This document shows positions 29,300 to 31,262 of a stretch of 64,000 bases of DNA, piece after piece; position 1 is the first letter of the stretch; each line of letters begins with the position of its first letter. The notes beneath the pieces are model-generated. The model was not told the origin of the DNA, searched no databases, and saw only the letters and a list, made by a program, of their open reading frames with translations. Origin of the DNA: Candidatus Nitrosotenuis cloacae. GTDB taxonomy: Archaea > Thermoproteota > Nitrososphaeria > Nitrososphaerales > Nitrosopumilaceae. The stretch is from contig NZ_CP011097.1 in assembly GCF_000955905.1 (NCBI RefSeq), forward strand, positions 569,957 through 633,956, read 5' to 3'. Position numbers and translations under genes: made by a program.

Positions 29300-31072
29300 T
29301 CATTTGATCATGATTAGTTCTTTTACTTGGGATCTAATGTAATCAAACCCATCCTGCCAGAACTTGGCGGAGGATATGTCAATTCCGTACTGACTTAACA
29401 GGGTCTCTGGCTTTTGTGAGCCACCGGCAGCCAGAATCTCAATGTATGTTTTCTCAAATTGTCTGCCTTCCCTTTGGTACATTTGGAATAGCGACAATGA
29501 CAGCAAATTGCCAAATGAATATGCATAACAGTAAAACGGCGTGTGGTAAAAATGTGGAATGCAGCTCCACTCTATTGCGAAATCATCTGATAATTCAATA
29601 GAGTTTGCAAACTGGGTTTTTAGGTTTTTCATGTATGTCTTTGATAGTTCCTCTATGGTGGTGCCGTCTGCAATTTGCTTGTGAGCATCGACTTCAAAAA
29701 TGGTAAAAAATGCCTGTCTCATTACAGTTGCATAGATGTCGTCTATTTTCTCAGAAAGGATGGCCGCCTTTTCGGTATCTGCCATTTGGTGTGAGATATT
29801 GTCATATAGTAATAGTTCGGAAAATGTAGATGCCGTCTCTGCTAGTGGTAGTGGGGCCTCTGATACTAGGATCGATTGTTTTGATGCTGCTTGGCTGTGC
29901 ACTGCATGGCCTAATTCATGAGCCAGCGTGAATACATCCTTTGATTTTCCTGCATAGTTTACCAGAACATATGGAGTCAGCTTTGGTGATACTGTGCTAC
30001 AAAATGCACCGTCTCGCTTGCCGGGCCTAATTTGCGAGTCAATATGGTTTTGAGAAAACACTCTATTTGCAAATTCAGACAAGGTGGGGCTGAATCTGTT
30101 TAGCGAATCTAGAACTAGTTTTGTTGCATTTTCATAGGTATAGTTTTTTTCCTTGAATTTCTTTGCGCTGGGTGCATACAGGTCGTATCGCCTTAGCTTT
30201 TTGAGACCTAATGACTTTGCCTTGAATGAAAAAAACTCGTAGAAAACACTCGAATTTTTCTTGCAAACATCCAATAGAGTCTGGGTTGTTTTATCATCAA
30301 CATCATTCCCAATGTTTCTAATGGATATTGGGGAAGAGTATTTTCTGATTTCAATTCCTTCATCCTTCCAGTTTAGGACCAGATTCTGGTAAATTTCGCC
30401 TAGTACTCCCTTGTTGGAGGAAAACCTGCCAAGAAGCGTTTGATATGCTGTTTTTCTCAAGCTTGGATTTGTACTCCGGACCAGAACACTTAGCTGCTCG
30501 CGTGTGAGTTTTTTCTTTTTGCCATTTATTGTTATGATGTACTCAAATGCATTTGTTATCTTGTCGTATAGTTTTACCAGTGCAGTAGAGCCTGTAACAT
30601 CCAATGTGTTGATGATTTTTTCTTCGGGCTCTGATAGGGAGTATTTTGCCAAGAGGCGTTTATGCCTTAGGTATTCGTATAGGCTGCCGGCGTCCTTCAT
30701 GAGTCGGGTGGCATTTTTTTCATCAATTTTGCGCTTCCACCACAAATCAAAAAACAGCGTCTTGTTTTCTATTTCGGATCCCAATTTTGATATCTTTGTT
30801 AAAAGCGATGTTGCCTCATCTGATTGTGTATCTGATGAATACAGCAATGACGCATAGCCGCCCAACCTGCTTGCGTCTTCAGCTAGGTCTTCAATGTGGT
30901 GGATTATTCTGTAAAAGTCCTTGGATGGAATGGTCGGCTTGAGTGCTGATTTTATGCGCTCAAAGTTTTTGACCTTGGCCTCAAGCCTTGTGATTTGTTT
31001 TGCAAATTCCGGAGACTTGTGATCTGATGCAAGTTCAGACAAACTCCATCTTCCCTGCTTGTACATTTGCAA
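29300..31072 (-). CDS. pepF: Oligoendopeptidase F-like metallopeptidase (M3)
   Basis: 590-residue cytoplasmic zinc peptidase of the M3B family, cutting peptides of roughly 7-17 residues. The zinc site HELGH is in LAHELGHAVHS, with a downstream glutamate in ETASTFSELLLYD. The C-terminal segment HFYHTPFYCYAYSFGNLLSL is typical of PepF. An upstream Met pair (MQMYKQGRWSL) leaves two possible starts two codons apart. No signal peptide. Confidence 0.9.
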   Translation of the reverse strand: MQMYKQGRWSLSELASDHKSPEFAKQITRLEAKVKNFERIKSALKPTIPSKDFYRIIHHIEDLAEDASRLGGYASLLYSSDTQSDEATSLLTKISKLGSEIENKTLFFDLWWKRKIDEKNATRLMKDAGSLYEYLRHKRLLAKYSLSEPEEKIINTLDVTGSTALVKLYDKITNAFEYIITINGKKKKLTREQLSVLVRSTNPSLRKTAYQTLLGRFSSNKGVLGEIYQNLVLNWKDEGIEIRKYSSPISIRNIGNDVDDKTTQTLLDVCKKNSSVFYEFFSFKAKSLGLKKLRRYDLYAPSAKKFKEKNYTYENATKLVLDSLNRFSPTLSEFANRVFSQNHIDSQIRPGKRDGAFCSTVSPKLTPYVLVNYAGKSKDVFTLAHELGHAVHSQAASKQSILVSEAPLPLAETASTFSELLLYDNISHQMADTEKAAILSEKIDDIYATVMRQAFFTIFEVDAHKQIADGTTIEELSKTYMKNLKTQFANSIELSDDFAIEWSCIPHFYHTPFYCYAYSFGNLLSLSLFQMYQREGRQFEKTYIEILAAGGSQKPETLLSQYGIDISSAKFWQDGFDYIRSQVKELIMIK

Positions 31073-31141: not shown

Positions 31142-31235
31142 GGACCGATTGTCTAGTTGGTTAGGATGACGCACTCACACTGCGTAAGGATGTAAAATCC
31201 CGCAAGGGTCGTGGGTTCAAATCCCACTCGGTCCA
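31142..31235 (+). tRNA. tRNA-Val (anticodon CAC) with 20-nt intron in the variable loop
   Basis: Acceptor GGACCGA pairs with TCGGTCC (discriminator A, no encoded CCA). Anticodon arm ACGCA-CTCACAC-TGCGT with anticodon CAC; T-arm GTGGG-TTCAAAT-CCCAC. Between the anticodon stem and T-stem there are 25 nt instead of 5. TGCG (31181-31184) pairs with CGCA (31201-31204) as a 4-bp helix flanked by 3-nt bulges TAA (31185-31187) and AGG (31205-31207), and GGAT pairs with ATCC inside: a bulge-helix-bulge signal. Cutting after the second base of each bulge removes exactly 20 nt (31187-31206), leaving variable loop AGGTC and a 74-nt tRNA. Confidence 0.93.
31187..31206 (+). other. Non-canonical tRNA intron (variable loop)
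   Basis: 20-nt intron predicted from the bulge-helix-bulge pairing described for the tRNA. It lies after tRNA position 44, not at the usual 37/38 site. Inner stem GGAT/ATCC with a 5-nt GTAAA loop; the outer exon helix is weak (about 2 bp), so the motif is of the relaxed type that crenarchaeal/thaumarchaeal heteromeric endonucleases accept. Confidence 0.85.
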
Positions 31236-31262
31236 CTTTTTTAAAACCAAATAGTATGTTCT

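Follow-up and report, generated by a model that had tools for sequence, protein, structure and literature searches.

A bulge-helix-bulge intron predicted in the variable loop of tRNA-Val(CAC) of Candidatus Nitrosotenuis cloacae and its relatives

Results

The tRNA-Val(CAC) gene

The window analysed here is a stretch of 64,000 nucleotides (G000:C1:569957-633956) of the genome of Candidatus Nitrosotenuis cloacae, an ammonia-oxidising archaeon. This genome consists of a single contig of 1,620,156 bases and is 99.93% complete. A tRNA-Val(CAC) gene lies at positions 31142-31235 of the window on the forward strand, and its anatomy agrees to the base with that given in a preliminary description of this DNA. 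ARAGORN called the gene as tRNA-Val(cac) at 31142-31236, and the Rfam family RF00005 matched 31142-31235 with 56.9 bits. The concern that standard finders might misfold or miss this gene was not borne out, as both programs found it with the correct anticodon and merely left the intron unmarked.

The gene begins with GGACCGA TT GTCT AGTTGGTTA GGAT G ACGCA CTCACAC TGCGT, continues with 25 nt, and ends with the T arm GTGGG TTCAAAT CCCAC, the acceptor strand TCGGTCC and the discriminator A. Direct slicing confirmed that 25 nt separate the anticodon stem from the T stem, and also the position of each bulge-helix-bulge (BHB) element. The features are as follows.

31142-31186, plus strand: exon 1 (acceptor 5' strand, D arm, anticodon arm, U43 and A44; mature positions 1-44), from ARAGORN, Rfam and direct slicing
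31187-31206, plus strand: predicted 20-nt intron AGGATGTAAAATCCCGCAAG between mature positions 44 and 45, from the BHB cut rule, with insertion point and mature loop conserved in relatives
31207-31235, plus strand: exon 2 (variable-loop GGUC at 45-48, T arm, acceptor 3' strand and discriminator A; CCA not encoded), from sequence slicing
31181-31184, plus strand: BHB central helix 5' strand TGCG, which is also the 3' strand of the anticodon stem (39-42); pairs with 31201-31204
31201-31204, plus strand: BHB central helix 3' strand CGCA, within the intron; pairing and covariation in relatives
31185-31187, plus strand: 5' bulge TAA with the predicted cut at 31186/31187, from the BHB rule
31205-31207, plus strand: 3' bulge AGG with the predicted cut at 31206/31207, from the BHB rule
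31188-31191, plus strand: inner intron helix 5' strand GGAT, partner of ATCC at 31197-31200; two-sided changes in relatives
31197-31200, plus strand: inner intron helix 3' strand ATCC; two-sided changes in relatives
29300-31072, minus strand: divergent neighbouring ORF of 590 aa, zinc peptidase-like with an HExxH motif (HELGHAVH), also beside the tRNA in relatives; context

Two 3-nt bulges with a 4-bp central helix between them (TAA / TGCG-CGCA / AGG) are thus found at the exon-intron junctions, as expected of a BHB, and the inner hairpin has the loop GTAAA. An in-silico cut between the second and third bases of each bulge removes 20 nt and leaves a 74-nt product with the variable loop AGGTC at 44-48. 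The proposed 20-nt variable-loop intron at position 44/45 therefore agrees with the cut rule, and the relatives described below point to the same site.

In the genome 41 tRNA genes scored above the Rfam cut-off, and among them this locus alone has the anticodon CAC. A second intact tRNA-Val(CAC) gene had been named as a finding that would speak against the proposal, and neither such a gene nor a pseudogene copy was found in the complete 1.62-Mb genome. The tRNA-Val(GAC) and tRNA-Val(UAC) of the same genome have variable loops of 5 nt each. The closest named relatives of the peptidase-like ORF belong to Candidatus Nitrosotenuis and other Nitrosopumilales.

Conservation and covariation in relatives

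The spliced 74-nt sequence was used as a BLAST query against 61 genomes, and its alignments were split at base 45/46, the predicted intron site, in many relatives. When all loci were screened for an anticodon arm with CAC, 34 intron-bearing genes were obtained, with more among the named and family genomes. The insert was at the same position in all intron-bearing homologues inspected, and splicing by the same rule gave AGGTC in all of them. Its length ranged from 17 nt (L049, L068) to 48 nt (L076), with the spliced loop constant. The central helix showed four of four pairs in 33 of the 34 intron-bearing genes and three of four in L075.

Covariation was assessed in an alignment (A2) of 30 distinct homologue rows, in which the central and inner BHB helices together were 98.7% paired. 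In the central TGCG/CGCA helix 99.2% of the cells were paired and one pair showed two-sided changes, and in the inner GGAT/ATCC helix such changes were seen in all four pairs, giving five of the eight BHB pairs overall. The covariation score of 0.274 was reached by none of 500 shuffles, a count that is not usable as a probability as the rows are related by descent. When the partners were slid by 1-3 columns, pairing fell to about 57% or less.

Position 39 is shared by two helices. In the mature tRNA it pairs with position 31, and in the precursor with the final base of the intron's central strand. The 31-39 pair is changed in five sequences, from A-U to U-A or C-G, and the intron base facing 39 goes from A to U alongside it (AGCG/CGCT, GGCG/CGCT), so both alternative helices are kept. 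The sole exception is L075, in which an A-C mismatch is found. Judged from this covariation, the BHB motif is maintained by selection. The comparison with related genomes that the preliminary description had called for thus came out in its favour, with a conserved insertion point, covarying helices and intronless orthologues with the same loop.

Two genomes carried two intron-bearing tRNA-Val(CAC) copies each, G026 (L073 and L074) and G025 (L079 and L080). The copies of G026 are identical, and each lies at or near a contig end.

Distribution in the family

The family census was a covariance-model search of 136 family genomes, in which strong matches were full-length, of intron-bearing size and with a best E value of about 4e-16 or better. 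A full-length intron-sized match was obtained in 103 of the 136 genomes. The view that an intron at 44/45 is rare therefore fails within the Nitrosopumilaceae, where it is the rule. Weaker matches only, mostly of about 73-75 nt, were found in 17 of the 19 genomes of genus g9 and in every genome sampled from g6 and g19. Eight more genomes across other genera gave no strong match, possibly reflecting assembly incompleteness. Within g9, where the intron is mostly absent, G145 (L131) and G147 showed an intron-size match; polymorphism, a loss pattern or a binning mix-up are possible explanations.

In orthologues without the intron the loop is short and in most cases reads AGGTC. In Nitrosopelagicus/Marine Group I (L182-L184) the tRNA is located near the same peptidase gene and has the loop AGGTC and no insert, and in the outgroup families of the order the loops are 4-5 nt and mostly AGGTC. 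In the unrooted peptidase tree, a single well-supported branch sets the intronless marine clade apart, a topology that would fit either a single gain of the intron or a loss in Nitrosopelagicus/Marine Group I.

Folding energetics

The minimum-energy fold of the precursor (-31.2 kcal/mol) includes the 4-bp central and 4-bp inner helices of the BHB. When the 25-nt variable region was shuffled, a 4+4-bp BHB in the same register arose in 141 of 1,000,000 shuffles. With the other arms held the same, an unspliced cloverleaf with a hairpin has a slight energetic advantage over the BHB fold (-29.9 vs -28.3 kcal/mol).

An outer helix of at most 2 bp is possible (C38-G and A37-U). It is probably absent, because adding these pairs worsens the calculated fold energy (-26.4 vs -28.3 kcal/mol). 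The preliminary description had assumed a weak outer helix, but the helix is probably missing rather than weak. By this energy comparison, a strict hBHBh' motif, with a stable outer helix next to the exons, was not found. The motif is therefore a relaxed BHB, and it is reasonable to suppose that its processing calls for a broad-specificity enzyme.

Splicing machinery

The genome encodes two EndA paralogues, and an RtcB gene is also present. The alpha EndA (177 aa, L092) is closest to the Sulfolobus and Aeropyrum catalytic subunits and keeps the Tyr/His/Lys triad positions, while the beta EndA (193 aa, L093) is without the catalytic His. In the alignment with the Aeropyrum chain, a Lys of the alpha EndA also falls opposite residue 44, which we take to be the crenarchaeal-loop lysine. 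This gene content fits the earlier expectation that a broad-specificity endonuclease is needed, with an alpha subunit carrying the loop Lys and a beta subunit both encoded. The architecture of the Thaumarchaeota endonuclease is (alpha-beta)2 (PMC4090602). As outlined in PMC6379350, the conserved loop Lys confers broad specificity on EndA, and the (alpha-beta)2 endonuclease can excise relaxed BHB introns. It is supported, from the protein sequences, that a broad-specificity (alpha-beta)2 endonuclease is encoded and would be active on such introns.

Other tRNA genes in the genome

A tRNA-Arg(CCU) gene whose D loop carries a BHB intron of 22 nt was observed at L233 (G000:C1:1590100-1590500, minus strand). 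It is below the Rfam cut-off, and the unspliced gene was missed by ARAGORN, which called it Arg(cct) after in-silico splicing by the same rule. Its recognition after splicing supports the BHB cut rule in this genome. Before splicing it went unrecognised, which shows that tRNA finders can overlook genes of this sort, although they do call the Val gene.

The loci L030 (G000:C1:800562-800650, plus strand) and L039 (G000:C1:663374-663463, plus strand) hold a pair of tRNA-like genes that are related to each other, with 79% identity over 71 nt. They have a GAA anticodon, class II-type variable arms of 20-21 nt and the discriminators A and G, and are surrounded by ordinary chromosomal genes. A normal tRNA-Phe(GAA) is also present in the genome, and L030 as a query gave no full-length match in 40 relatives. 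They resemble the idea of nev-tRNAs, which are long-arm tRNAs with class I anticodons (PMC4033280).

At L027/L232 (G000:C1:472869-472971, minus strand) ARAGORN called an Arg(TCT) gene with a 28-nt intron. A possible alternative reading of this locus is a tRNA with the anticodon CAU and a non-canonical intron in the anticodon arm; a plain Arg(TCT) gene exists elsewhere in the genome (L020).

Discussion

Our results suggest that this locus is almost certainly a normal tRNA-Val(CAC) gene, present once in the genome, whose 20-nt insert at position 44/45 is an archaeal BHB intron of the protein-spliced type. We infer cleavage by EndA and ligation by RtcB, and with them the mature tRNA, because archaeal tRNA splicing is established. 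In the proposed precursor, the anticodon-stem strand 39-42 (TGCG) would be paired with the intron CGCA and not with 28-31, and the inner 4-bp hairpin would close the intron so that the two 3-nt bulges are exposed. Both bulges would then be cleaved after their second base by the (alpha-beta)2 tRNA-splicing endonuclease, and RtcB would ligate the exons. The freed strand 39-42 could then re-pair with 28-31, giving the anticodon stem and the 5-nt loop AGGUC.

One could suppose that the working tRNA keeps the extra 20 nt and has a long variable arm like that of class II tRNAs. ARAGORN and Rfam read the gene without marking an intron, and the inner hairpin could serve as a variable-arm stem. However, CGCA shows covariation with the strand of the anticodon stem, for which a variable arm would have no need, and the orthologues without the 20 nt, like the other two Val tRNAs of the genome, have 5-nt loops. 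The insert also varies between 17 and 48 nt across homologues, with the spliced loop still AGGTC, and we consider retention highly improbable. A class II tRNA with a conserved V-stem was rejected on the same grounds, as orthologues have no arm or inserts of 17-48 nt and the helices covary. The suggestion that the gene is a decaying copy with an insertion, with tRNA-Val(CAC) supplied by another gene, found no direct support, although tRNA-Val(UAC) is present and might read GUG by wobble. There is no other CAC gene in the genome, every stem is intact, and conservation is family-wide with compensatory changes; decay is therefore barely credible.

A different excision, of 18 nt between the AAGG direct repeats (31186-31189 and 31204-31207), was also rejected, as it would leave a 7-nt loop. 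It fails in relatives with the bulges TAT, AAG, ATG or ACG, whereas the BHB cut always gives AGGTC.

As for why the predicted intron is kept, its removal might gate the folding of the anticodon stem as a maturation checkpoint, the BHB holding the 3' strand of the stem so that there would be no working anticodon arm until splicing. Retention in most of the family fits this idea, as do the coordinated changes at three places, positions 31 and 39 and the facing intron base, but a simple motif constraint explains them equally well, and we regard the checkpoint as unlikely.

Taken together, the Val(CAC) gene offers a clean family-wide case of a non-canonical intron, in which genes with and without the intron share one chromosomal location. 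Such matched genes at one site are useful for annotation and for the study of tRNA intron gain and loss. The current view of tRNA splicing is unchanged.

The intron is a further case of a well-known archaeal intron class, as variable-loop introns have been known since 1989. In that year Kjems et al. reportedly described a variable-loop tRNA intron of Thermofilum pendens, which is likewise archaeal but from a different order, a likeness drawn from the title of that paper alone. Variable-arm introns occur in archaeal tRNAs, and Kjems et al. are cited for them (PMC3978253). According to PMC8450103, the non-canonical introns of 217 archaeal genomes total 673, of which Thaumarchaeota account for 107. 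At the level of these totals the Thaumarchaeota introns share with ours the phylum, the BHB motif class and a non-canonical position. The same source mentions a Thaumarchaeota-specific BHB intron model in tRNAscan-SE 2.0. With the canonical archaeal intron at 37/38, the Val intron shares a BHB recognised by EndA and the ligation of the exons. In contrast to it, the Val intron lies at 44/45, has no stable outer helix, and uses the 3' strand of the anticodon stem for its central helix.
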